Assembly (NCBI GenBank): GCA_947054085.1
Contig: CAMRVD010000005.1
Location: 1-43,047 of the forward strand
Origin: an uncultured Clostridia bacterium
GTDB taxonomy: Bacteria; Bacillota; Clostridia; Christensenellales; UBA1242
DNA: 43,047 bases
Direction: 5' to 3'
Below are positions 19,121 through 43,047 of the stretch, in pieces. The translations under genes and the position numbers were made by a program. The notes below the pieces were generated by a model, which made no database searches, was not told the DNA's origin, and was given only the letters and a program-made list of their open reading frames with translations. The stretch's first letter is position 1. Every line of letters begins with the position of its first letter.

Positions 19121-19150
19121 TTGCAAATAGATGCATGTATTTGATATAAT
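19121..19150 (+). promoter_or_regulatory. Candidate extended -10 promoter for the M60-like gene
   Basis: TTGCAA (19121-19126), 18-bp spacer, TGa-TATAAT (19145-19150). Confidence 0.55.
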
Positions 19151-19193
19151 ACATAACGATAAATTAAAATTTATAAATAGTAGAGGAAAACTA

Positions 19194-22100
19194 ATGGCAA
19201 ATAATAAAAATAATACCATTATAAAATCTAACAAATTTAAAGATTTTTTTAAAAAGAAAACCAACAAAATATTAAGTATATGTTTAGCTGCAGTACTTGT
19301 TGTGGGCACAACACTTGCAGTTGTTTTACCAATTACACTTAAAAAGCGTAACGTAGATGTTGCGTTTAAAATACCGGCACTTAACTTGCCTATATCGGAG
19401 AGATATGCTCTTACTAAGTACGATTACGACAATCTAGGCGAAACTGTAAAAACCCTAAGGGAAGATACAATGGTTGTAACAAAGCGTGATCTACCAAGGG
19501 CAGAAACTACTTTGTTACCAGACGAATATACAATAGCAGAAAATGGTAATAACCTAAATTACTATTATGGGTTTCAGGATGCCGAAGGCAATCCATATAA
19601 TTTTGGTAGTAAATACACTACTATAGATTTTGACAACTACTATTTATACCCCGGCGATGGTCTTGGAAATGGTACGGGCGGTGCAAACACTATCGGCAGG
19701 CACTTTGCAGCAGAGGCAAATGCAATGTTCCCGGGGGATTCCGATGCTTATACAAAATATGGCTTGTATTACAAATTTATGCTACTTTCTCAAGGACATA
19801 ACTTAGGCATAGAGTCGCAAAACCGTGCGGTGCAAACTTTAAATAATCCGCAAAATCAAGCTGAATTTAAGGCTTGGCTAAAAAAGCACCCAGCTGCAGA
19901 TCTGCAGTACGGTGCAGTTGTTGGCGACAATAACGCAGTAGAAAAAGAGATTACTTTAGACCCTATTTATAGAGCATACCATGCGACAGGGCTATACTTG
20001 CCTGCAGGCGAAGCTATAGACTTAAAAATAGAAAACTTACAACCGGGCGAAAGCATCTCGGTAGTTGTAGCTTTGCAAAATACTTTGGCTTATGCTGCAA
20101 CAGGATATAATACTATCACTGGTTACAAGAGTGCAGAAACTGCATTACTAAATGGTCAATTTTCTAATTATTTTGCTAGTACTACAAACGAAGAAACGGG
20201 TGTAACTTCGCTATCTGGTCACTCTTTTTTGCAAAGTCAGATGCTTAGACAAAATAATCGTATGCCATGGATTCATGCAACCTTTACTTTTAGCAAAAAT
20301 GGAACATATACACTAGGCACTCCATTTGGCGGAATTATGCATATAGCTATGAACAACTGCTATAGTCAAGTTAAAACAACTTTTACTGGTGCGGTAGAAA
20401 CTCCTCATTATATTTTGGGCGTAACCACCCCAGAGTACTACGATACTTATCTTCGTAACGCTCCGGGCGTTGTGGGCGTACTAGATACCGAAAACGGTCA
20501 GCTAGTTGGCCCAGTTTTTCCAGTAGATGGATATCCTTCTAACAGTGTTAAAAACCACTCTTTACGAACAACAAAAACCGAAGAAATAGAAAAGCTTGGC
20601 ATGCTTTGGCATTCCTTTTTTGCGGTTAACGAGTCGTTTACTGGCGGAACATATAACCGCGGCAATATTGTTAAGTTCGACCAGCACGTACCAGCAGGTG
20701 CGGCGGTTGCTCTTGGCGGATATAACTATGCTTGTCCTACGGGTTGGTTCTATAACTGCATGAGCTATACAAATATGACGACAAGTGGCAACTGGGGAAC
20801 ACTTCACGAAATTGGACATAACCATGCAAGTAGTTATGGTACTTTTTGGGGCTTTGGCGATGGTAAGGAAGGCGAGGTTCATAATAATGCCCTAACCGTT
20901 TTAAGTTACTTGCTGTTTACAGATATCCCTACATCGGTTGGCAATAATACAGTGGGTGTAGAACATGGTTTTGTTGCAAACCCTTATACAAGTTTATCCG
21001 CGGCACTTAGTATAAAAAATCGTAATTTTAGCGACTATAGCGAGCTTGGTTACTTTGATATGCTAGATATGTATAGTAATATAATGCACTCGTTTAGTCC
21101 CGAAAAGTTCTACGAACTACTTTATACATACAAAGCAAATGGCGATTCTGCATACCGCGAAACGGCTACAAGCAATCGTCGTTCGGGCTTTGCGTATAGG
21201 TGTGCTCTTGTTTACGGAATGAACTTTACAAATTACTATAACAATATATATAGAGCAAAAATAACCGAGGATATGTATACCTCGGAGCAACTAGCATATT
21301 TAAAAAGTTTGCCAAATTACGAACCAATTGCTTGCAAATATGCTGGTGGCATAGATGGCATAAAAACTGGTGGCGACTACATAGTAAACTTTGGAGAGGA
21401 CATAACCCTAGATTTACTTACAAACACTATATCTAGCTTAGATACGGCAGACAAAAAAGGCTTTACAATTTTAAATGTAGGTAACCCAATATACGGAAGC
21501 ATTACTAATTTAGGTAACGGAAAGTATAGTTACAGATTTAACCGAAATTACGCAGGTACAAGCGACCAGTTTAGTTTTACTGTTAAATTAGATGACGGAG
21601 TAGTGCACGAGTTTACCGTGTACTTGCGTATAGGCTATAACGCAGGCAGCTTAACATCTTATCAAGGACTAGATAAAGGCACTGATATTTTTGAAACAGT
21701 AGAACCTCAGATTGCGGAAAAAGGGCCAACAAAAGTAGAAAACGTTAATGTGGCTGGTACAGGAAAGTATACAACTGCCGCAAACACATGGGAAGTTAAG
21801 TATTTGGACTTTTATTGGAAAGCTCCTAAATCTGGTAAAGTTACATTTACTTTGTATTACGACGACGCAATTAAATTCTACTTTGGTACAAACTTTAATA
21901 ACCTAGAACTTTTGTATACAGCAACTTCGCATTCGGGAAGCAACTGGATGGAGGTAAACGATAAAGATATAATAGTTACTGCTGGTCAGTATTATGCACT
22001 GAGATTATTTAACGTAAATACTGGCGGCGGCGGACATGCCTATGTTGGGTGCTTCTTTGAGGGCGATGCTAACAGACAAATAAAGACGGAAACTATGTAT

Positions 22101-23855
22101 CATCCGTATATGAGTTTAGGGGCAAATCCTGTACCATATAAGTTTGAACCAGTATATTTGGTATCTAAAAAGGATGGTATTGCAGTAGAAACTACGGGTA
22201 CAGATAAAGGTAAATGGGAAGTTATAGAAGCTCCAACTCTTGCTCATGGCGGTATTTATTACGACGAAGCTAGTGATAAGGCAGATACTAAAAAACGCGG
22301 TCACTACGAAAAACATACCCAGTACATATTGCCTCCAGAAGCCTACGACGAATACGGCAACGAAATAGAGGGTTTTACTGGTGATAGAATAGAATATACT
22401 CAGTACTATAATATGTGGAACTATCTTATAGACGGTAGTACAAGCACGCATTATCATACACCTTATAACGGCAGTTATAACGAAACAAATTTATCAAAAA
22501 ATCCTCATGTCTTTGTTATAGATACTAAAAACTTGCAGTCGATGAATTATTTTTCGGTAACTACTCGAAATAATGCAAACTCTTACATAGAAGAATACGA
22601 ATTTAGCGTATCTACCGATAATGTAAACTATAAACTTATAAGAGCAGGAACTCGAAAAGACTATAAAAATACAACTATTACAATAGAATTTGATTCGCAA
22701 ACGGTAAGGTATTTAAAACTGGTTGTAAAAAAGGCATCGGGTGGATCGTTCTCGGTGCTATCCGAAATTGATGCAGGTATACAAACTCATACACAAAGAC
22801 TGCTATCTACAACAAGCCCACTAGTATTTACTACAAAAAATTGGCAAAATTCTGCTAATATTCAGGGCTTAAAACATGGATACTTAGTATCAGATAAAAA
22901 GAACGAAAAAATGGTACTAAGATTTATTGGTACAGAGATTGCTCTATACGGTGCAGTAGGTAAAGATTTCGGCATGGTAGATGTTAAAGTTGATGGAAAG
23001 TATGTAACAACTATTGATTTTTCGAGTACCAAAGACGAACCACGCAAACTATTGTATATTTTAGAAGACCTAGAAGATACTACCCACACGGTAGAAATTA
23101 TAACAAAATCTAATGGGAGGGTTATGCTTAATATGCTCGGAATAAACTATTTATCTCAGCTAATAAACGCACCAAATATATATAAGGAAAGGGCACTTAC
23201 TAATACGGTAATTGTATTTGTAATATTATTTGCTGCTATACTAACACTTATATTATGCTTGTTATTTATACCAAAGTTTCGCAACTTTATGGGTGGAAAT
23301 AAAGGTATACTTTGGATGGATAAAAAACTAGAAGAGGGTAGAAAAAAGCGAAAAGAAAAACGTGCCGAAAAGCGTGCTCAAAAAGCTGAGGAAAAACGCA
23401 TTGCAGCTATTGCAAATGGACAAAAGGTAAATTCAGAAAAAAAGACTAAGTCCTTAGAAAATAACGTTACTACTAATACAAAAATTAATAATAAAGTAAG
23501 TGCTACAAACTTACACAATAATCAAAATAGCAAGGTTGCTAAAAAAGATTCAAGTAAAATTAGTGAAAGTCATTCTGCTGGTAAAACACAAGCTTCGGCT
23601 TCAAGTAAAGGTAGCAATGATAACAAAACTACAAGTAGTGCTTTAAATTCTACTAAAAGCCCAATCGCACATAAAAACAATACAAAATCAATAAAATCAA
23701 CTGAGGATAAGACAACAAAACCTGCTGATAAAACAGTTAAAGCCAAGAACGCTCAAGCTGGTAAAAAAACTAAACCAACTAATAGCAAGTCAGCAAGCAA
23801 TACAAAGTCAACAACCAAAACGGCGACTAAAACCGCTGCCAAAAATAAAAAATAA
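19194..23855 (+). CDS. Giant membrane-anchored peptidase M60-like (enhancin/mucinase-type) protein with discoidin-like domain and Lys-rich tail
   Basis: GNWGTLHEIGHNHASSYGTFWGFGDGKEGEVHNNALT (HExxH plus downstream Glu), F5/8C-like NMWNYLIDGSTSTHYHT...YLKLVVKKASGG, TM NTVIVFVILFAAILTLILCLLFI. ATG at 19194 has an SD; the ORF-track start at 19131 lies upstream of the predicted transcription start. Confidence 0.8.
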   Translation: MANNKNNTIIKSNKFKDFFKKKTNKILSICLAAVLVVGTTLAVVLPITLKKRNVDVAFKIPALNLPISERYALTKYDYDNLGETVKTLREDTMVVTKRDLPRAETTLLPDEYTIAENGNNLNYYYGFQDAEGNPYNFGSKYTTIDFDNYYLYPGDGLGNGTGGANTIGRHFAAEANAMFPGDSDAYTKYGLYYKFMLLSQGHNLGIESQNRAVQTLNNPQNQAEFKAWLKKHPAADLQYGAVVGDNNAVEKEITLDPIYRAYHATGLYLPAGEAIDLKIENLQPGESISVVVALQNTLAYAATGYNTITGYKSAETALLNGQFSNYFASTTNEETGVTSLSGHSFLQSQMLRQNNRMPWIHATFTFSKNGTYTLGTPFGGIMHIAMNNCYSQVKTTFTGAVETPHYILGVTTPEYYDTYLRNAPGVVGVLDTENGQLVGPVFPVDGYPSNSVKNHSLRTTKTEEIEKLGMLWHSFFAVNESFTGGTYNRGNIVKFDQHVPAGAAVALGGYNYACPTGWFYNCMSYTNMTTSGNWGTLHEIGHNHASSYGTFWGFGDGKEGEVHNNALTVLSYLLFTDIPTSVGNNTVGVEHGFVANPYTSLSAALSIKNRNFSDYSELGYFDMLDMYSNIMHSFSPEKFYELLYTYKANGDSAYRETATSNRRSGFAYRCALVYGMNFTNYYNNIYRAKITEDMYTSEQLAYLKSLPNYEPIACKYAGGIDGIKTGGDYIVNFGEDITLDLLTNTISSLDTADKKGFTILNVGNPIYGSITNLGNGKYSYRFNRNYAGTSDQFSFTVKLDDGVVHEFTVYLRIGYNAGSLTSYQGLDKGTDIFETVEPQIAEKGPTKVENVNVAGTGKYTTAANTWEVKYLDFYWKAPKSGKVTFTLYYDDAIKFYFGTNFNNLELLYTATSHSGSNWMEVNDKDIIVTAGQYYALRLFNVNTGGGGHAYVGCFFEGDANRQIKTETMYHPYMSLGANPVPYKFEPVYLVSKKDGIAVETTGTDKGKWEVIEAPTLAHGGIYYDEASDKADTKKRGHYEKHTQYILPPEAYDEYGNEIEGFTGDRIEYTQYYNMWNYLIDGSTSTHYHTPYNGSYNETNLSKNPHVFVIDTKNLQSMNYFSVTTRNNANSYIEEYEFSVSTDNVNYKLIRAGTRKDYKNTTITIEFDSQTVRYLKLVVKKASGGSFSVLSEIDAGIQTHTQRLLSTTSPLVFTTKNWQNSANIQGLKHGYLVSDKKNEKMVLRFIGTEIALYGAVGKDFGMVDVKVDGKYVTTIDFSSTKDEPRKLLYILEDLEDTTHTVEIITKSNGRVMLNMLGINYLSQLINAPNIYKERALTNTVIVFVILFAAILTLILCLLFIPKFRNFMGGNKGILWMDKKLEEGRKKRKEKRAEKRAQKAEEKRIAAIANGQKVNSEKKTKSLENNVTTNTKINNKVSATNLHNNQNSKVAKKDSSKISESHSAGKTQASASSKGSNDNKTTSSALNSTKSPIAHKNNTKSIKSTEDKTTKPADKTVKAKNAQAGKKTKPTNSKSASNTKSTTKTATKTAAKNKK

Positions 23856-32172: not shown

Positions 32173-33219
32173 ATGGATTGGTCAAAAATATGGGCTAATA
32201 TTGTAAATTTTTTTACAAATAACATTTGGAATGTAGTTTTGTTTGTGGCAGTGCTTGTACTTGGCATAATATTAGTAAAGATTGTTATAAACATAATGCG
32301 TCGCATTTTAAACAAAACCAAAATGGAAAAAATTGCACAAAACTTTTTGCTTGCAATTATTAAATTTTGCTTGTATTTGGTTTGGATACTGGTGCTTTTA
32401 AGTATTATTGGAATACAAGTTTCGGGCATATTAACCGCGCTTTCTGCAGTTGTACTTGCTATTGGCATGGCGCTAGAAAGCAACATTGCAAACCTTGCAA
32501 ACGGAATTATTATAGTTTCTACGCACATGTTTAAAAAAGGCGATTATATATCGGTAGATGGTGTAGAGGGAAGTATAACACAAATAAACTTTTTGTTTAC
32601 TACTCTTACTACGCCAGATAACAAAAAGGTAACACTACCAAATAGCACTATAGTTAACAGCAGTGTTACAAATGCGGGAGCAAACCCAAAGCGTAGGGTA
32701 GACTTTACTTTTAGCGTAGCTTACGAAAGCGATGTAGAGGTGGTAAAAAAGATAGTAACAGACGTTATGACTAGTAACGGCAAGGTATATCTAGACCCAG
32801 CGCCATTTTGTAGGCTAAAGGTACTTGGTGCTAGCAGCATAGACTTTTTTGCAAACTGCTGGGTAGACAGTGAGGATTACTGGGATGTTTACTATTACAT
32901 TATCGAAAATGTTTATAACGAATTTAAGCGCAATAATATAAGTATACCATATAATCAACTAGAAGTTCGCAGTAGGGTAGACGAGGTAACTATGCCATAC
33001 TGCAAACAGACTTTACCAGCTAGGGAAGAAAAGGTACGGGCAGAAAAACACACACTAGATTTAGAAAACGCTGACTTGACTGCTATATTTAAAAAACGCA
33101 AAAGGACAAACGAAAATAACAAAAACAACAAGCAAACCAAGCAAAAAACCGCAAAAACACAAAGTAAAGCGGAAAAGTCATCGCAAAAATCTGCAAAAAA
33201 TGCAGAAGATAAAAAATAA
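32173..33219 (+). CDS. mscS: Small-conductance mechanosensitive channel (MscS family) with Lys-rich C-terminal tail
   Basis: GILTALSAVVLAIGMALESNIANLANGIIIVSTHMFKKGDYISVDGVEGSITQINFLFTTLTTPDNKKVTLPNS. Confidence 0.92.
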   Translation: MDWSKIWANIVNFFTNNIWNVVLFVAVLVLGIILVKIVINIMRRILNKTKMEKIAQNFLLAIIKFCLYLVWILVLLSIIGIQVSGILTALSAVVLAIGMALESNIANLANGIIIVSTHMFKKGDYISVDGVEGSITQINFLFTTLTTPDNKKVTLPNSTIVNSSVTNAGANPKRRVDFTFSVAYESDVEVVKKIVTDVMTSNGKVYLDPAPFCRLKVLGASSIDFFANCWVDSEDYWDVYYYIIENVYNEFKRNNISIPYNQLEVRSRVDEVTMPYCKQTLPAREEKVRAEKHTLDLENADLTAIFKKRKRTNENNKNNKQTKQKTAKTQSKAEKSSQKSAKNAEDKK

Positions 33220-33230
33220 TTAAAAAGCAA

Positions 33231-33256
33231 AAAAAAGATGCAGCCATATTAGTTGC
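33231..33256. terminator. Bidirectional intrinsic terminator
   Basis: aaaaaagatgca ... tgcatctttttt between mscS and a minus-strand small ORF. Confidence 0.7.
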
Positions 33257-33291
33257 ATCTTTTTTTAGAGATTAAATTAAGGGTAAATTAA

Positions 33292-33384
33292 TTATCTCTT
33301 TGTCGAAGTTGAACCGCAATCGGATTCCTTTACTCTTTTAGAAGAGCAATTTTTCATCTTTTTGCTATTTTTGTCTTTTTTCAT
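33292..33384 (-). CDS. Candidate 30-aa Lys/Ser/Cys-rich microprotein
   Basis: Reverse complement AAGGAGGACGAT-ATG, encoding MKKDKNSKKMKNCSSKRVKESDCGSTSTKR*; below the ORF-track length cutoff. Confidence 0.5.
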   Translation of the reverse strand: MKKDKNSKKMKNCSSKRVKESDCGSTSTKR

Positions 33385-33759
33385 ATCGTCCTCCTTGACT
33401 AACTTTAGTATGTGAGGATTTTTAATTATTATTCACAAAATAACAAAAATAAAAAGAGAGCCATTAGTCACTCAATTTTGAAACTATCGGAATAATTAAA
33501 GCAAAACATAGACAAAACGGCCTATGTTTTCTTTTTACCCATTCTCTCTCTTAACTGCCAAACAAAACGAAAATTTCTGCCGTTGTCATAGGTTGCCGTG
33601 AAAATAAATAATATTTAAAATTCTATGGCACTTACCTTGACCTTGACAACAAAGAATATTCGTTTATATCAAAATAATAGAGAGAAGAAAACAAAAAGCA
33701 AAAGAGCGGTGTGCGTTATGCTGCGCCAGCAACCGTTCTTTTTGCAAACAAAATTTAGT

Positions 33760-33823
33760 TTAGGCGTGTGCTTGTCTGCTGGAGCGAAGCGATGCCACTT
33801 GTTCAAGACAAGCACACGCCTAA
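33760..33823. repeat. 18-bp perfect inverted repeat (hairpin)
   Basis: TTAGGCGTGTGCTTGTCT (33760-33777) / AGACAAGCACACGCCTAA (33806-33823), 28-nt loop. Confidence 0.85.
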
Positions 33824-33922
33824 GTACCAAATTGAAAATTTTTTTATTTTATCATAACTTTTTAATACATATTAGAGAGGTTTGTGTTATAATTATAATG
33901 AAGTTAAATAAGGGGGCGTTTT

Positions 33923-34804
33923 ATGTTGTATACAAAAAGCGGAAAAGAAGTTAGTAAAATTGGCATAGGCACATGGACTATTAAAAAAGAAAATATTGAT
34001 GATGAAGTCAAATCCTTGCAATTTTATTTTAATCAGGGAGTAAACTACATTGATGTAGTTTTAGCATATGACAACGGTGCCGTTCTTGATGTCGTTGCAA
34101 AGTTTTTAAAATCTGTTAAGAGAGAAGATATTTTTCTTAATGTTTTTATCACTCATGGTTGTGCTAAAATAGCCGATGTAGAAGAACAGATTAAAGTTTA
34201 TTTAAACAAATTGGGTGTTGACTATTTTGATTGTATAACTTTGCATAGTCCTGCTGTTTTAGGTTTCGATTTTAAAGAATATGTAAAAGAGATTAAAAGA
34301 TTGCATACTAAATATAAATTTTTAAACATTGGCTATAGCAACTTATCTCCAGCACAATTTGAGCAAGTAAAAGATCACATTTCATTTTTTGAAGGGCTTT
34401 ATAATTTAGAAAACAAGATAAACGATGACAATGGCATAATTGACTACTGCATCCAAAATAATATTCCATTTTATGCCTATCAACCACTTAGAAGAAATAG
34501 AACAGCAAAGCAAAATTATAATAAAGTTGTATCTCTTGCAGATAAATATTCCAAAACTCAAAATCAAATCCTTATAAATTGGATGATAAAGCACAAGAAT
34601 ATTGGGACGCTAATCAAAGCAAGCAAACAAGAACATATCAAAGAAAATGTTGAAGCATTAAATTTTGAGATGACTGAAAAAGATTATAAGCTGTTAGATA
34701 ATTTTAGAAATAAAGAATTTGATAAAATTCCTTTCTCTTATTGCAATGAAGAAGGAAAAATAAGAATAGACCAGATACCAAATCAACCTATTGGAATTTT
34801 ATAA
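33923..34804 (+). CDS. Aldo/keto reductase
   Basis: SKIGIGTWTIKK, GVNYIDVVLAYDNG, LNKLGVDYFDCITLHSP, IGYSNLSPAQFEQV; SD aaggggg. Confidence 0.85.
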   Translation: MLYTKSGKEVSKIGIGTWTIKKENIDDEVKSLQFYFNQGVNYIDVVLAYDNGAVLDVVAKFLKSVKREDIFLNVFITHGCAKIADVEEQIKVYLNKLGVDYFDCITLHSPAVLGFDFKEYVKEIKRLHTKYKFLNIGYSNLSPAQFEQVKDHISFFEGLYNLENKINDDNGIIDYCIQNNIPFYAYQPLRRNRTAKQNYNKVVSLADKYSKTQNQILINWMIKHKNIGTLIKASKQEHIKENVEALNFEMTEKDYKLLDNFRNKEFDKIPFSYCNEEGKIRIDQIPNQPIGIL

Positions 34805-34805
34805 T

Positions 34806-34837
34806 AAAAAACGAACTTATTTCAAGTTCGTTTTTTG
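34806..34837. terminator. Intrinsic terminator between convergent genes
   Basis: aaaaaacgaactt attt caagttcgtttttt-type stem. Confidence 0.75.
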
Positions 34838-34882
34838 CTAGTTTCAAAATTTACAGCCCTTGGGCTCTCTTTTTAGATAATT

Positions 34883-36544
34883 TTATGTGCTTTCTTTTTT
34901 AATTGTTCCTGTTTGCACGCGGTATACGTTTTTACAAACATCGCTAAATAAATTGTTGTAGCTAAATATAATAACAGTGCGGGTTTTAGAAATATATTTT
35001 ATTAGGCTTTTTATACGATCACGTTGATCTATTGTCAGCCCCGACGGAAACTCGTATAAACATATAACTTCGGCGTTTGTGCAAAGTGCTCGTGCAATGC
35101 CTAGTAGGTAAATATCAAAGCTGTTTAAATTGGTTTTTTCTTTATTTAAGTTTGTATTATAGGAATTGGTGGTAGATACAATTTTATCATGTATGCCCAA
35201 TTTTTTGCATGTGTTGTAAATATCGGTTTTACTTGCACCAGACAGTTGTAAGTTTTTCATAATTGTATCGTTATATAAGTAATTTTTGCTGGTTGCCACT
35301 GCAAAATTATGTTTATATGTTTCTTTGTCGAAGTCGTAAATATTTATTTTATCTAAAGTAATTGTACCAGTTGTTGGTTTTATTGTTCGGTTTAACATGT
35401 AAAAAATTGCTCGTTTGCCGCATAAATGTGTTCCATAAAACAAAGTTGCACTGTTATTAGTTAGTTTTAAGTTAAACTCATTAATATTACCGGTAAAATC
35501 GTCAGTCGAAGAAATGTAGCTAGCATTTGTAAAAATCACTTCACCATTTACATTGTCCTCGGTATTTTTACCAAACTCGGGTATATCTTCCTGCTTCATT
35601 TCGAGGATATTTTTAACCCTTAAACATGCAACATTTGTAGAGTCTAGTTTATCTATTATAACAAAAGAATTGGTCATTTTGGTTATGCTACTTGTTAGGT
35701 AGTTTGTAAGTACAAGATACAATGTTAATGTAAGAAAATTTGCTTTAGTTAATAGTACCATATAAATGCAAAGTGCACATATTACTAGTTTGTAGAAAAA
35801 TGGCACCCAGTTGTCTGTTATAGAATAAAATTTACCATACGTTTTTTTTGCGGTTTGACTATTTTTAATATTATTTAAATATTTTTTGTTTAATTGACTC
35901 GTTAAATCCAAGTCGCTTGTAATTTCGCGGTTATTAAAATTGTCGGTTAAAACTTCTAGCGATTTATCTTGATAGTAATAAAATTTGTCGGAATATTTTT
36001 CTATTTTTTTATTAAAAAAGTTTTGGGCAAAAAATATAATTATGCATACAGCTACTATAGCGATACCTATAATAAAATTGTAAGTAAGAAGTATTGTTAT
36101 ACTGGTTATAGCCTGCACAAAATAGCTTAGATATTTTGCTGCGTAATGGGGAAAGTCGCCTATTGCACCTATATTAGAGTAGGCAATATTTATAATTTTT
36201 TCCTTACTGGTTGTTACAAAGCTTTCGCTTGTGGCAGAACTAACTTTGTCGTAAATTTTAGAGTGAATATTCTGCCAAACTTTATGCATATTAAAAAAAT
36301 AAAAACGATCTGCAAGCCATGTTAAAAACTGCTCAATAAATACAATTACAAAGGATAATATTAGCCAAAATGTTGTAGATTTAAAGTTTCCTGCCGTTAA
36401 ACTTGTAATAGCATTAGCACTAGGAATAGCCGCAAAAATACCTAGCACAAACATAAGCAAAAAGCATAAAACTTCTAGTAACCAAACCCATAAACTAGGT
36501 TTAGCAATACTGGTAAATAATTTAACTTTTTGTAGATTATTCAT
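34883..36544 (-). CDS. ABC exporter-like half-transporter with degenerate NBD
   Basis: N-terminal TM domain; C-terminal NBD-like GTHLCGKRAIFYMLNRTIKPTTGTITLD, ...LLGIARAL, EVICLYEFPSGLT. SD AGGGGG supports ATG at 36544; overlaps the upstream gene by 8 nt (ATGAATAA). Confidence 0.8.
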   Translation of the reverse strand: MNNLQKVKLFTSIAKPSLWVWLLEVLCFLLMFVLGIFAAIPSANAITSLTAGNFKSTTFWLILSFVIVFIEQFLTWLADRFYFFNMHKVWQNIHSKIYDKVSSATSESFVTTSKEKIINIAYSNIGAIGDFPHYAAKYLSYFVQAITSITILLTYNFIIGIAIVAVCIIIFFAQNFFNKKIEKYSDKFYYYQDKSLEVLTDNFNNREITSDLDLTSQLNKKYLNNIKNSQTAKKTYGKFYSITDNWVPFFYKLVICALCIYMVLLTKANFLTLTLYLVLTNYLTSSITKMTNSFVIIDKLDSTNVACLRVKNILEMKQEDIPEFGKNTEDNVNGEVIFTNASYISSTDDFTGNINEFNLKLTNNSATLFYGTHLCGKRAIFYMLNRTIKPTTGTITLDKINIYDFDKETYKHNFAVATSKNYLYNDTIMKNLQLSGASKTDIYNTCKKLGIHDKIVSTTNSYNTNLNKEKTNLNSFDIYLLGIARALCTNAEVICLYEFPSGLTIDQRDRIKSLIKYISKTRTVIIFSYNNLFSDVCKNVYRVQTGTIKKEST

Positions 36545-38222
36545 GTTTTGCCCCCTGTTTTTTAGCATCTGTTACTTTTCCTGCAGTAACATTAAACATT
36601 GAGTCTGCAATACTTGAAATGGTGTCACTAGCCGTAAACACTATAAACGAATAATTGGCTTTTAAACTCTTTAAAAGTTTTTTAATGTTATCTTGTTCGG
36701 TTTTGGTAAGCGAAATAGGAAATTCGTATATACATATCCATTCGGACTCGCTAAGTAATGCCCGAGCAAGTCCTATCATAAACAATAAGTAAGCAGAACA
36801 GTCTTCTGCTTGTTTTACAAGATTGGTTTCGTATTCGTTTTTTAAAGATTTTATAGTTTTGTCTATATCCAGTTTTTTACACATGCTTATAATTTTTTTG
36901 CGGTTTGGTGTAACATACATTAAGTTATCCATTATGCTTTGGGAATAAAAGTATGGCTTGCTGGTAGCATAGCTAAAATTATGCTTGTATATGCTTTTAG
37001 AAAAATCGTATAAGTTTATACCGTCCATGGTAATAGTTCCGGTTGTTGGTTTTATGGTTCTTCTAAGCATATAAAAAATACTTCGCTTTCCGCAGCCCGC
37101 AACACCTTTAAATACCGTTATGGATTTTTGCTTTAAACAAAAATTTGTTAAATTTAAATCTCCGCTTCTATAAGGTTTTTCTTGAGTGTCTTTGTAAGTT
37201 ACATTGCTAAATATCAGGTCTTCACCAAGATTGTCAGTAGTATTATTAGAAAACTCTATTATATCTTCCTCGGGCATTTCTAAAACCGTTTGAATTCTAA
37301 GCCTGCAAACGTCTGCACGCTCTAGTTGTTTTAAAAAATCGTAGCCCTCGTTTGAATAATTTAGTATATCTATTAGGTAAGGTGCAATAACTAAATAAAC
37401 TGTAAGTGTAAGAGTACCAGAATTTGTTAAAGTGGCAAGCCAAATAGTAAGTGCAGTTATAACACCGTACAGCACACCGTATGTCCAATTAGATTTTAAT
37501 ATATTTAGCCTAGACCTCTTAGAATAATTGCTAACTATTAAACTAGCTTGTTTTAGATATTCGTCTTTATTAAGATTTTCGATATTAAGCATAGAACTTA
37601 TTTTTCGTCCGTCTACCATATCGGTAATTTTTTCGCCTAATTTATCGCGTTGGCTATAAAGCAAGGTAGTAATTTGATTATCTTTTTTTGCTAAAAACTT
37701 ATACCAAAAATATAATAGGACCACCACTGCTAGCATTATTAATCCCATATATAAATTATAATAAGCAACAATTCCGCATGTTATAATAGCACGTAAAATG
37801 TCGCTGATTTGGTAGCATAAATAATCGGTAAAACTTTGGACGGTAGAAAGATTAGCGGTAAATATTAGCATTAATTTTTCTATAGAATGACTGCTTAAAC
37901 TTGAACTTTTTACTTTTCCTACTTTTTGGTATAGCTTATTGCTTAGGTTTGTGGTGATATAATCACATTGTTTATAATAAAAGTAGTAATCTAAACTTTC
38001 AGAAATGTAATATAAAAGCGTACAAAAAAGCCCTATCAGTAGCCAAAAAATAGCTGCAGTAAAATCTAGTGAGGTTAAACTTGTTATAACGTTTGCGGCA
38101 GGGTAGGCTTGAATTATACTAATTAGTATGGAACATATACAAGCAATATAATTGCCAGCTAAATAGCCTTTATTAGGATTAGCTACTTTTGCCCAAGCTT
38201 TTATTTTTTTTATGATATACAT
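36537..38222 (-). CDS. ABC exporter-like half-transporter with degenerate NBD (paralog)
   Basis: Same architecture: GVAGCGKRSIFYMLRRTIKPTTGTITMDGINLYDF, MIGLARALL, WICIYEFPISLT; SD TAGGAG. Confidence 0.8.
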   Translation of the reverse strand: MYIIKKIKAWAKVANPNKGYLAGNYIACICSILISIIQAYPAANVITSLTSLDFTAAIFWLLIGLFCTLLYYISESLDYYFYYKQCDYITTNLSNKLYQKVGKVKSSSLSSHSIEKLMLIFTANLSTVQSFTDYLCYQISDILRAIITCGIVAYYNLYMGLIMLAVVVLLYFWYKFLAKKDNQITTLLYSQRDKLGEKITDMVDGRKISSMLNIENLNKDEYLKQASLIVSNYSKRSRLNILKSNWTYGVLYGVITALTIWLATLTNSGTLTLTVYLVIAPYLIDILNYSNEGYDFLKQLERADVCRLRIQTVLEMPEEDIIEFSNNTTDNLGEDLIFSNVTYKDTQEKPYRSGDLNLTNFCLKQKSITVFKGVAGCGKRSIFYMLRRTIKPTTGTITMDGINLYDFSKSIYKHNFSYATSKPYFYSQSIMDNLMYVTPNRKKIISMCKKLDIDKTIKSLKNEYETNLVKQAEDCSAYLLFMIGLARALLSESEWICIYEFPISLTKTEQDNIKKLLKSLKANYSFIVFTASDTISSIADSMFNVTAGKVTDAKKQGAKHE

Positions 38223-38386
38223 AAATGCTCCTAAGTGGTTTTTAAATCTAAATAACTAAATTTGCATTAATTAGTAAAATTATACATTGGCAGAGGTCAG
38301 GTAAAATTTAATTTATTAGTAATAATTATAGCCATAAAAAAATAAATATTGTCGTTATTTTATTGAATTACATCTTTTTTTATGAT

Positions 38387-38405
38387 ATACTATCATAGAT
38401 AGTAT
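38387..38405. promoter_or_regulatory. Operator-like palindrome
   Basis: ATACTATC ATA GATAGTAT in the intergenic region between divergent genes. Confidence 0.45.
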
Positions 38406-38534
38406 AGCCAAAAATACTCATAATGATATATTTTGTTGAATAAACTATCGTATAAGATATCGACAAATTTAGATTAATAGATTTATTATTTTACATAGGT
38501 TTAACACAAAAGTCAAGGTCGGTTAAGGATAAAC

Positions 38535-41500
38535 ATGAAGAAATTTTTATCTTATCTATTAACTTTTATAACGTTGCTTGTAATAAGTGCAACCATAACA
38601 ATAAAAGTTAAGTCTGATATATTAGAAAGCAATGTTTCTAATGTAAATGCTAGCGCTAGTAGCGAGGCAAGCCTTTTGTCTGGCTTAATGACGGCACTAG
38701 AGGATAATCCTAAATTAGATGTTTCGGCACAACTTTATGTAGTCATAGACGGCAAGCCTATGGACTTATGTTTAAATGCTAAAATAGATGTAACTAAACT
38801 TACAAATCCAAATGTAAGCGGAAACCTTACAATTAACTATGGCGGCGATACCTTAGATATTTTATTTACATATTTTAACGATATAATTTACTTATCGTAC
38901 AATAATATTCAAGTAAAATTTAGTGTAGATTCTATAAAGGATCTTATCAAAATATTTAGCGATACTGCAAAAAAAGAGTTGATTTTAAAGAATAGTCAAT
39001 CGCAAGATTCCCATAAAGAGGTTGATAGCGAAGAAAATTTGGATACAACTCAACCTGATAGCGGATTAAGTTTAGATTTAGATGCTTTAATGGATGCACT
39101 AAATAACCCAACCAAAACCGTTATTGGTGACGACTATATATACGAAGTTAATCTTCCTGATATTTGCAAACTTGTGATTGTTTGCGACAAAGGCTTTAAT
39201 ATAAAATCCGCAGATATTTCTAACTTTACTATGCTTAATAATGTAGAAGTAACTGGCAAAGTAAATGTGGTAATAGATAAAGATATTGTAATTGCAGATC
39301 CTTCTAATGCCGACGAACATTTAGATGTAGGAGCTATTACTCATGCTTTTGATACATTAAAAAACAACAGATACCTTCGTCTTAATGCTTGGGCGGCACT
39401 TTATAAAGAAGGTCAAATGGTACAAAATTTACAAGCTTTTGGCAAAGTAGATTTAAAAAATAACAGGGTATCGGTAAGCTCTTCGCTAAATGGTTTACTG
39501 GATGCTAAACTAAATTTAGATTACTTTGAAGATAATCTGTATATAAACTTTAACGATTTGTATTTGGCTTCTAATAAGGATGGCATTAATCAATTAGACA
39601 TACTATTAAAAAGCACAAATATAAAATATACAGATTTAGTCGCCGGCATATTTAATGGTAGTGCGGAGATAGTATCTTGGTTGGAAAATAATTATCAAGA
39701 AATATTAGATACTGCAATAATAAATAGTAATCAAATAAAACTTGTAGCAAACCTAAATGGAATACTTGGTCAAACTAGCGAAGTTAGCTTTATTGTAACA
39801 TTTAATAATGGGTTAATTTCGGGTATACAAATAAGTGGAATATCTATTAATGGTTATACTTTAAAACTTACAGTTTATGTAGATTCTCCAAAAGAACTGG
39901 TGTTTAATTTAGATACACAAAAATATTATCAAGTAAACGATCTACTGCAAACTTTAGTTCCTATTGTTTCGGACAAGAAATTTAAGGTAACTGCAGATTT
40001 TAATATTTTATCAAACAATAATAATTTTAATTTTTCGGCAAATGCTAATATAGATTTAAGTAACAATATTTTTGTTGGAGATATTACATTATTAGATAAA
40101 ATCTTGGGCTTGGGCTACGACGGAAATAATATTTATATAAATTACGATCAAATTTACGCAAAAATAGATGCTGCAGAATTATTTAATATTATATCCACTT
40201 TGTCGGGTAATTCTTCTACAGAGTTGTTGTTTAATGTTAGTCAATTTGTAAATGGATTATTTTTAAACGATATGTTATCGCTATTTAATCTTTCGTCTAA
40301 TAAAGATGGCATATCTTTATACGCAGATTTATCTACATTGTTTAATAAGTCGATAATTATATCTGTTAACGTTTCGTATAGTAATGGTGTTGCTTTAGAG
40401 ATAAATGTTACATATGGCGACTATACAATTTTAGGAACAATTAACATAAGTCAATTAAGTGACGATGTTAGTATACCAAACAATCAATATCAAGATGTTA
40501 CTAACTTAGTTAAGGAAATTTCAAGTTTAACACAAGGTAACAATTTTGTAGGAAGTTTAGATGTTAAATACAAAGATATATCGCTTAATGGTAATTATCA
40601 ATTAAGTTTAAACAATGATAAGTCAACTGTAAACGTTAAATTTATAGGTCAGCTATGTGATCTTAATATAAATATTGCATTAGTAGATAACGTTATTTAT
40701 TGTGCTATAGACGATCTAAAAGTTTATATGCCAATATCAGAAATAAACGATTTGGTTAATTGGATTAACGTTAATTTTAATAAAAATATAAATATTAATG
40801 ATTTATCTAATTTATTTAAAAATTCCAGTCTTGATAATATTAACATAACGCTATTAGAATTATTGAACGACAAAATTGCTATAAATATTAATCAATATAA
40901 TCTTGCTATAAATCTAAAAAATGGACTAAATATACAAGTATCATCTAATGATTTGCTTGCAAACGCAACATTAGGAATAACAGAAGAACCGTTTAATTTT
41001 AATACTCAAGGTTATGTTCATTTTAGTGAAGTTTTAAATTTAGCAAATAGTGTAATCAACCTTGTAAAACAAAAACAATTTGCATTAAACGGTACAGCAG
41101 AAGTATACGAGGGTAATACTTTACATTACTCGGCAATAGCTACGGTACAAGTAGATTTACAAGATTTTGCAGTATTTGGCGAGATTATTGTAACTGATCA
41201 TATAAAAAATATAGATATGCCATTTATGATAGCCTTTAACCAAGGTATGTGGTATGTAGACTACAATAACTTAAAGGTAAAAATAGCTAAAAACGACCTT
41301 AACGAAATTTTAGTTGTACTTTTAGAACTTGCAGGTGTAGACCCAAGTGTTATACCATTTTTACAAGATGCCGTAAATGGTATGGATATAAATGTCGGTA
41401 ATATTTCTGCCATAGTACCTAATATCGATTTTAGTAATCCTATTAGTATGATTAAGTTTGTAAAAGGCTTAAGCTTTAACGGAACCGATTTAAGTTTAAA

Positions 41501-43047
41501 ATTAGACAGTAAGCTTACAAGCGTAGAGGGCGAAGGCGATATGCTTGTTTGCATAAAAACAAATGGCAGTAAACTTACAAATGTAACCATAAATAATCTA
41601 TATACTGGCGTAACTCTTGGTGAGCATTTTAACTTAGATGTTAATGTTATAGATTACAAGGGTGTAAACAAACCTTACGAAGGTAAATATATCGATTTAT
41701 CTGGTAGTAACGAACTAATTAAAGCTATAATTAATACAGCTGAGCTTAACTACTTTAATATTACTGGTAATTTGGATATTACCGTTATGGGTATCAATCT
41801 TGGTAAAGTATACATCGATGCTCAAGTTAAACTAGACGAAGAGCGTAAGCCAGAAATTATTATAAGCCTTCCTAATATTCCAGTAATTGGTGCTGCGGTT
41901 GGCGGGCTTAATGTTAATAATGATGTTCCTTATAAGTTTGGCGATGGTGCAGTAGATAGCAGACAAGCAGTAATTTATTATAAAGACGGCTATGTATATA
42001 TGTACCGTAAAGATGTTCTTCAAGTTAGTCGCCGAACTTACGAAAAGAAACTAAAAGTTCATATTGACCAAATGCTTGCTGATCCTATGTATTATGTACA
42101 ATATCTAACCGGTTTTACCGATCAGATAATTGACGCGATAAAAAAGAGTTTAGCGTTAAGCGAAGGGCATACTCCAGATTTAGGCAATATTATTAATGAA
42201 TTTAAAGTAAATAACAAAACCGACTTTAGTATAAAACTTAATATGCACGAACTGACAAACGATCCTAATATGGGCGAAATGTCTATTGGATTAAATGTTA
42301 TAAACACTCCAGAAACTGGAAACAAAAACTATGTTGGTAAAGCAAACTTTAGTTTAACATTACCATTTACTGATGCAATTACAATGGTACTTAACAGCGA
42401 CGATTTAGCACTAGTTAATATTGGTAAAACATTAGACTTTAGCAGCTTGTACAACTATATTAGTAGCTACAACTACTCGGAAAACGAGGAGTGGGAAGCA
42501 AGTAACGGCTCCTGGAAAAAAGCTGATGAAAGAACCAACACCATAAGTTTTAACAGTATGGGCGGCGCAAATGTAGATAATATTACTGCAAAAGTTGGCG
42601 AACCTATAACAGTTCCTGCATTACCTAATAAAGTTGTAGTAGATAGTGCTACTGGCACAAGATATACTTATAAATTTGATGGCTGGTATACTGATAATAG
42701 GTTTAAAGATGGCACAAAGTTTACTGAAACTATTATGCCACGCAAGGACACACAGCTTTATGCTAAGTGGGTACTTATTAAAACCGAAAAGATAGTAACT
42801 ATTAGCTTTAATAGTAATGGTGGTAGTGCTATTAGTAGCATTAGCGAATTGCAAGGCACATATATCAATGTAAACAATTATGTACCTACTAAAGACACTA
42901 TTTACCAAGACAAAGGCTATAACTGGACGGGCAAAAATGCTGGTAAGTGGACGTATTTGGTAACGACTTATAACTTTGAAGGCTGGTACACTGATAGCAG
43001 TTGTACAAGTAAGTTTAATGGAATTGTTCCAGATAACAACATAACTC
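38535..43047 (+). CDS. Giant secreted repeat protein with C-terminal Flg_new/InlB B-type repeats (partial, runs off window)
   Basis: ATG at 38535 after SD taagga, N-terminal signal/TM MKKFLSYLLTFITLLVISATITI, long open frame to the window end; YKFDGWYTDNRFKDGTKFTETIMPRKDTQLYAKWV and YNFEGWYTDSSCTSKFNG near the end. Confidence 0.85.
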   Translation, partial: MKKFLSYLLTFITLLVISATITIKVKSDILESNVSNVNASASSEASLLSGLMTALEDNPKLDVSAQLYVVIDGKPMDLCLNAKIDVTKLTNPNVSGNLTINYGGDTLDILFTYFNDIIYLSYNNIQVKFSVDSIKDLIKIFSDTAKKELILKNSQSQDSHKEVDSEENLDTTQPDSGLSLDLDALMDALNNPTKTVIGDDYIYEVNLPDICKLVIVCDKGFNIKSADISNFTMLNNVEVTGKVNVVIDKDIVIADPSNADEHLDVGAITHAFDTLKNNRYLRLNAWAALYKEGQMVQNLQAFGKVDLKNNRVSVSSSLNGLLDAKLNLDYFEDNLYINFNDLYLASNKDGINQLDILLKSTNIKYTDLVAGIFNGSAEIVSWLENNYQEILDTAIINSNQIKLVANLNGILGQTSEVSFIVTFNNGLISGIQISGISINGYTLKLTVYVDSPKELVFNLDTQKYYQVNDLLQTLVPIVSDKKFKVTADFNILSNNNNFNFSANANIDLSNNIFVGDITLLDKILGLGYDGNNIYINYDQIYAKIDAAELFNIISTLSGNSSTELLFNVSQFVNGLFLNDMLSLFNLSSNKDGISLYADLSTLFNKSIIISVNVSYSNGVALEINVTYGDYTILGTINISQLSDDVSIPNNQYQDVTNLVKEISSLTQGNNFVGSLDVKYKDISLNGNYQLSLNNDKSTVNVKFIGQLCDLNINIALVDNVIYCAIDDLKVYMPISEINDLVNWINVNFNKNININDLSNLFKNSSLDNINITLLELLNDKIAININQYNLAINLKNGLNIQVSSNDLLANATLGITEEPFNFNTQGYVHFSEVLNLANSVINLVKQKQFALNGTAEVYEGNTLHYSAIATVQVDLQDFAVFGEIIVTDHIKNIDMPFMIAFNQGMWYVDYNNLKVKIAKNDLNEILVVLLELAGVDPSVIPFLQDAVNGMDINVGNISAIVPNIDFSNPISMIKFVKGLSFNGTDLSLKLDSKLTSVEGEGDMLVCIKTNGSKLTNVTINNLYTGVTLGEHFNLDVNVIDYKGVNKPYEGKYIDLSGSNELIKAIINTAELNYFNITGNLDITVMGINLGKVYIDAQVKLDEERKPEIIISLPNIPVIGAAVGGLNVNNDVPYKFGDGAVDSRQAVIYYKDGYVYMYRKDVLQVSRRTYEKKLKVHIDQMLADPMYYVQYLTGFTDQIIDAIKKSLALSEGHTPDLGNIINEFKVNNKTDFSIKLNMHELTNDPNMGEMSIGLNVINTPETGNKNYVGKANFSLTLPFTDAITMVLNSDDLALVNIGKTLDFSSLYNYISSYNYSENEEWEASNGSWKKADERTNTISFNSMGGANVDNITAKVGEPITVPALPNKVVVDSATGTRYTYKFDGWYTDNRFKDGTKFTETIMPRKDTQLYAKWVLIKTEKIVTISFNSNGGSAISSISELQGTYINVNNYVPTKDTIYQDKGYNWTGKNAGKWTYLVTTYNFEGWYTDSSCTSKFNGIVPDNNIT

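Follow-up and report, generated by a model that had tools for sequence, protein, structure and literature searches.

A candidate pseudo-ATPase family with the ABC exporter fold in the Clostridia family UBA1242

Motion driven by ATP is the defining feature of ABC transporters. Three of their residues, the Walker A Ser/Thr, the Q-loop Gln and the Walker B Asp, coordinate Mg2+; the adenine stacks on the A-loop, and LSGGQ and the D-loop of the opposite nucleotide-binding domain (NBD) complete the site. Two neighboring genes in a 43,047-nt stretch of DNA from an uncultured Clostridia bacterium (contig CAMRVD010000005.1; hereafter the window) encode ABC half-transporters in which this site is altered, raising the question of whether they still pump, serve as halves of other transporters, are decaying, or have been kept for something else. 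We take the host to belong to UBA1242, a Christensenellales family with reduced genomes.

Both genes lie on the minus strand and both open reading frames are complete. ABC1 (36537..38222) encodes a 561-aa half-transporter composed of a transmembrane domain (TMD) and a pseudo-NBD; ABC2 (34883..36544), located downstream, encodes its paralogue, a half-transporter of 553 aa when counted from Met9. The longest frame of ABC2 starts at 36568 and would overlap ABC1 by 32 nt. The second ATG (Met9, 36544) is preceded by a Shine-Dalgarno-like AGGGGG and reduces the overlap to 8 nt; the intact frames and 8-nt coupling overlap proposed in the preliminary description are thus borne out, provided that ABC2 starts at Met9. 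Inspection of the sequence after ABC2 revealed a possible terminator hairpin, AACGAACTT-GAAAT-AAGTTCGTT followed by a T-run (34803..34832, minus strand), which is absent from the terminator scan output. No Rfam families were found in 33000-43047.

The exporter-like layout that had been read from the letters was confirmed by an HMM search, with TMD followed by NBD and every domain above its curated Pfam cut-off in both proteins. ABC_membrane (PF00664) scored 36.4 and 45.3 bits (cut-off 28) and ABC_tran (PF00005) 31.5 and 35.5 bits (cut-off 25). AF2 models (pLDDT 84.2 for ABC1 and 82.1 for ABC2) contain a helical TMD and an NBD in which the P-loop helix (H379-386 in ABC1) and the Walker B strand (E495-499 in ABC1) are present; the exporter fold is retained. 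The top Foldseek matches of ABC1 are TM287/288, MsbA, TmrAB and other exporters, with TM-scores mostly between 0.75 and 0.84. Domain order, AF2 and Foldseek therefore agree on an ABC exporter fold.

The ATP site is a different matter. In ABC1, Walker A reads G373-VAGC-G378-K379-R380-S381 (37080..37106, minus strand, as are all motifs below), with Arg380 in place of the Ser/Thr of GK[ST]. Alignment with canonical exporters places YATSKPYF (36948..36971) at the Q-loop, where the Gln is replaced, and shows that in the signature region (36753..36797) LSGGQ is gone while the helix that follows it, IGLARAL, is retained. Walker B ends in ICIYEFP (36717..36743), in which Tyr499 replaces the Asp, Glu500 is retained and Pro502 replaces a Thr. 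Ala531 takes the place of the H-loop His in FIVFTASDT (36621..36647). ABC2 follows the same pattern: its sequence contains a Walker A GTHLCGKRA with R386 (35408..35434), a Walker B end ICLYEFP with Y505-E506 (35045..35071) and an ATSK Q-loop, lacks LSGGQ, and has another residue instead of the H-loop His. The GKR, YE, ATSK and missing-LSGGQ readings of the preliminary description were all correct for both proteins. Compared with a functional ABC ATPase, ABC1 and ABC2 lack a standard Walker A, the Walker B Asp, the Q-loop Gln, LSGGQ, the D-loop SALD and the A-loop Tyr, and by motif reading each protein is without both sides of the composite site.

This double loss bears on one alternative, namely that each protein is an accessory half that pairs with a canonical half-transporter encoded elsewhere to give a degenerate site in the style of TM287/288, TAP, CFTR or SUR. 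Most carrier genomes have one copy, and canonical exporters are encoded in the same genomes, which fits such an arrangement. However, with the Walker A/B and the LSGGQ/D-loop sides both gone, both composite sites of the dimer would be broken, and in the loci examined family genes adjoin each other or stand alone, with no canonical half beside any of them. We consider this alternative improbable. Self-pairing or pairing with a canonical partner should not rebuild a canonical ATP site, because both sides of the composite site are replaced.

We aligned 62 members of the family, all of full or nearly full length and with a median pairwise identity of 28%, and set them against 18 canonical exporters taken from the same order and from the sister family. 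Of the members, 61/62 retain the Walker A Lys and 61/62 have Arg after it, where all 18 canonical exporters have Ser/Thr. The Walker B Asp, present in 18/18 canonical exporters, is Tyr in every one of the 62 members. The next residue is Glu in 59/62 members (17/18 canonical), and at the Pro502 site, two columns after the Glu, 60/62 members have Pro where 18/18 canonical exporters have Thr. The Q-loop Gln, invariant in the canonical set, is found in only 5 of the 62 members, most of which have Ser, Ala or Thr. Ordered by conservation, the GKR, YE and P columns lie within ranks 4-21 among 561; in the same alignment the A-loop Tyr, LSGGQ and the D-loop Asp show no conservation across the family. 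Arg after GK and Tyr at the Walker B Asp position, occurring in 61/62 and 62/62 members, respectively, versus 0/18 canonical exporters at both positions, make a replacement far beyond chance. The proposed check of whether GKR and YE are conserved in homologues has thus been run, with a positive answer across the 62 members. The loss of the H-loop His holds for ABC1 and ABC2 but not as a family rule: His is retained in 32/61 members, mostly in one subclade, and Ala is found in 22/61. Reassignment of Arg codons to Ser was considered and excluded, since five Arg codons (AGA, AGG, CGT, CGC and CGA) occur at the site across the family; the Tyr is encoded by TAT or TAC.

In the genomes searched, the family is confined to one lineage. 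A protein search in 59 relatives, 34 of them from the GTDB family of the window (UBA1242), identified clear homologues with 25-37% identity in 9 of these 34 genomes. A profile search of 309 UBA1242 genomes found copies in 59, distributed over 18/42 genera; full-length family copies scored ~279-776 bits and generic exporters at most ~233 bits. In searches of 396 genomes at the level of the order, 291 at that of the class and 300 at that of the phylum, the altered family turned up only in UBA1242. The remaining strong matches, at 325-342 bits, were all canonical exporters, encoded by three genomes from a single further Clostridia family. No relatives were found in viral contigs. One member is encoded by Candidatus Onthoplasma faecipullorum, and Onthoplasma is assigned to GTDB family UBA1242 (PMC12306168). 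Some loci were collected by a pattern scan that contained YE; by contig and coordinates they match genomes that the full-length profile search, which involves no selection on the YE motif, had likewise identified, and ascertainment bias from the scan was dismissed on this ground. The most divergent members (L088, L089 and L055, genus g33; 279-323 bits) still have GKR, and L089 has Tyr-Gly at Walker B.

Most carrier genomes have a single copy, and the heterodimer suggested in the preliminary description is therefore not a general feature; an obligate pair is in general unsupported. The genome of the window itself carries a third copy, a single gene (L033:6223-7902, G000:C22) that belongs to the subclade with the H-loop His.

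In a phylogenetic tree the 62 members form one clade (SH-aLRT 100), separate from the canonical sister and from generic exporters. ABC1 and ABC2, both of which have GKR and the Walker B Tyr, group as sisters inside this clade with a support of 85; a separate duplication gave rise to the tandem pairs in three other genomes (G130, G179 and G105). The closest canonical relatives are the matches from the other Clostridia family (L131-L135 in G762, G969 and G974; 325-342 bits with the family profile). They occur as tandem pairs in 2/3 genomes and, unlike the family, have canonical GKS/GKT, DE/DD, S[GS]GQ and D-loop Asp, and in most cases the H-loop His. Because these closest relatives keep every motif, the replacement probably occurred once, before the tandem duplication, and has since been held by selection. 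A single clade argues that the altered center is ancestral and not the product of parallel decay; the initial view that the two NBDs had degenerated in parallel gives way to a single origin in the family ancestor, with the window genes as later tandem paralogues.

Could these nevertheless be pseudogenes decaying during genome reduction? The genome is small (1.19 Mb), one copy is split by a stop codon (L108, G209:C11), and another has its whole site eroded (L121, G321:C38). Against this stand the 62 open frames of full or nearly full length, the invariant replaced residues, and NG86 dN/dS values of 0.04-0.10 between the closest relatives, with dS at or near saturation in most pairs; L052/L054, the pair that behaved best, gave 0.043. 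Among more than 60 copies, only about one was interrupted and one eroded. Decay as an explanation is highly improbable, and we rejected it on dN/dS and conservation. Isolated decay, a dN/dS near 1 and frequent frameshifts in relatives were each looked for, and none was found. The proposal that the proteins are retained for a role without canonical Mg-ATP hydrolysis agrees with the conserved GKR and YE, a dN/dS far below 1 and the few broken copies.

Selection appears to act unevenly. NBD identity is 0.33 in the family vs 0.63 in canonical exporters at a TMD identity of 0.25-0.30. Judged from these sequences, constraint on the family NBD is loose as a whole but tight at GKR and YE-P, and the TMD is more constrained relative to the NBD than in canonical exporters.

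The family resembles the type IV ABC exporters MsbA, TM287/288 and TmrAB in domain order, six-helix TMD, NBD fold and P-loop position, but is without the Mg2+-ligand residues, the A-loop Tyr, LSGGQ and the D-loop, and has a conserved Arg and Tyr instead. To our knowledge, the degenerate ABC proteins described so far (TM287/288, TAP, CFTR, SUR1) keep one canonical composite site. Like these proteins and fungal Pdr11p/Aus1p, the family has non-canonical motifs under selection; unlike them, it has lost both site halves in every protein, and ABC1 and ABC2 together do not retain even one canonical composite site. In Pdr11p, by comparison, NBD1 has poor Walker motifs and a good signature, and NBD2 the reverse (PMC5602531). 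SUR1 NBS1 binds ATP independently of Mg2+ and offers a partial precedent for metal-free binding (PMC4699857). We found no description of GKR, or of a family with both sides lost, in the open-licence papers searched.

We therefore asked what a protein of this kind might do. ABC1 and ABC2 probably serve a purpose other than classical pumping driven by ATP. The reading that we favor, and hold to be reasonably likely, is that they belong to a lineage-restricted, conserved family of exporter-fold pseudo-ATPases with a repurposed P-loop and without canonical Mg-ATP binding and hydrolysis. The comparisons show one ancestral change that replaced the Mg2+ site (Ser/Thr to Arg, Asp to Tyr, most Q-loop Gln lost) and also dropped the Tyr that stacks adenine, the signature LSGGQ and the D-loop; purifying selection has kept the P-loop Gly residues and Lys fixed, along with the new Arg, Tyr-Glu and the Pro. 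Arg380 may substitute for Mg2+ beside Lys379, such that an anion or nucleotide is held metal-free and without turnover; alternatively, an Arg380-Glu500 ion pair may fix the NBD in a single state. Rather than an ATP-driven pump, the membrane half could, as a dimer, form a pathway that is passive or gated by a ligand, or else a scaffold. What speaks against a pseudo-ATPase is that the catalytic Glu and the P-loop Lys, not obviously needed by a purely structural domain, are retained.

The same residues could instead sustain a non-canonical, possibly metal-free hydrolysis of a nucleotide or another phosphoanhydride, with Lys379, Arg380 and Glu500 driving the pumping of a substrate. The joint retention of Lys (61/62), Arg (61/62) and Glu (59/62) fits such chemistry, as does the H-loop His present in about half of the members. 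However, the loss of LSGGQ, Q-loop, D-loop and A-loop would leave no closed NBD sandwich and no geometry for an attacking water, and we regard turnover of this type as unlikely. Alternatively, the proteins might act as regulated sensors: a nucleotide or phosphorylated metabolite would bind without Mg2+, and its level would be relayed to a partner, with nothing transported. The conserved P-loop and adjacent basic residues would suit this role, and sensing of the energy state would be useful in a lineage reportedly without ATP synthase and complete glycolysis (PMC12306168). Yet no partner gene is conserved family-wide, and the TMD constraint, which relative to the NBD exceeds that of canonical exporters, suggests that the TMD still forms a definite structure, for example a pathway; sensing alone is rather improbable.

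Returning to the pseudo-ATPase reading, a more specific and quite tentative version of it is that the family provides a membrane pathway free of ATP hydrolysis in a lineage that is poor in energy and depends on partners, the former Mg2+ site being occupied by Arg and Tyr and the pore gated by a metal-free nucleotide or other anion. This gut lineage is reported to have neither ATP synthase nor complete glycolysis nor standard nutrient transporters (PMC12306168). How solutes move in UBA1242 cells is a question that the family helps to make testable. A family without the Mg-ATP center, in which other residues are conserved at that place, would also be a natural experiment on the exporter fold without hydrolysis. 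TLC-type ATP/ADP translocases (PF03219) had no matches in 40 genomes, and none in control genomes either.

The neighboring genes gave no hint of a substrate. In one subclade the context comprises BacA, YchF, FtsH and dCMP deaminase, and in another Pol I, ThrS and YajC/SecD; both look like inherited synteny. In the window, a frame of at least 1504 aa (38535-43046, plus strand) runs off the contig end, divergently from ABC1; it begins with a segment resembling a signal peptide and carries a Flg_new repeat. A giant secreted protein lies near the ABC gene in divergent orientation in 8 genomes of two genera. Homologues of the window frame lie near the ABC gene, again divergently, in 7/7 genomes of one other genus (G312-G318), and in the loci that were read a dCMP deaminase separates the two. 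A functional link between the giant protein and the ABC gene is unproven, the deaminase often lying in between. Elsewhere in the window (19131-23855, plus strand), a 1574-aa protein contains an M60 (enhancin-type) peptidase domain, with Big_9 above and GLEYA below the cut-off.
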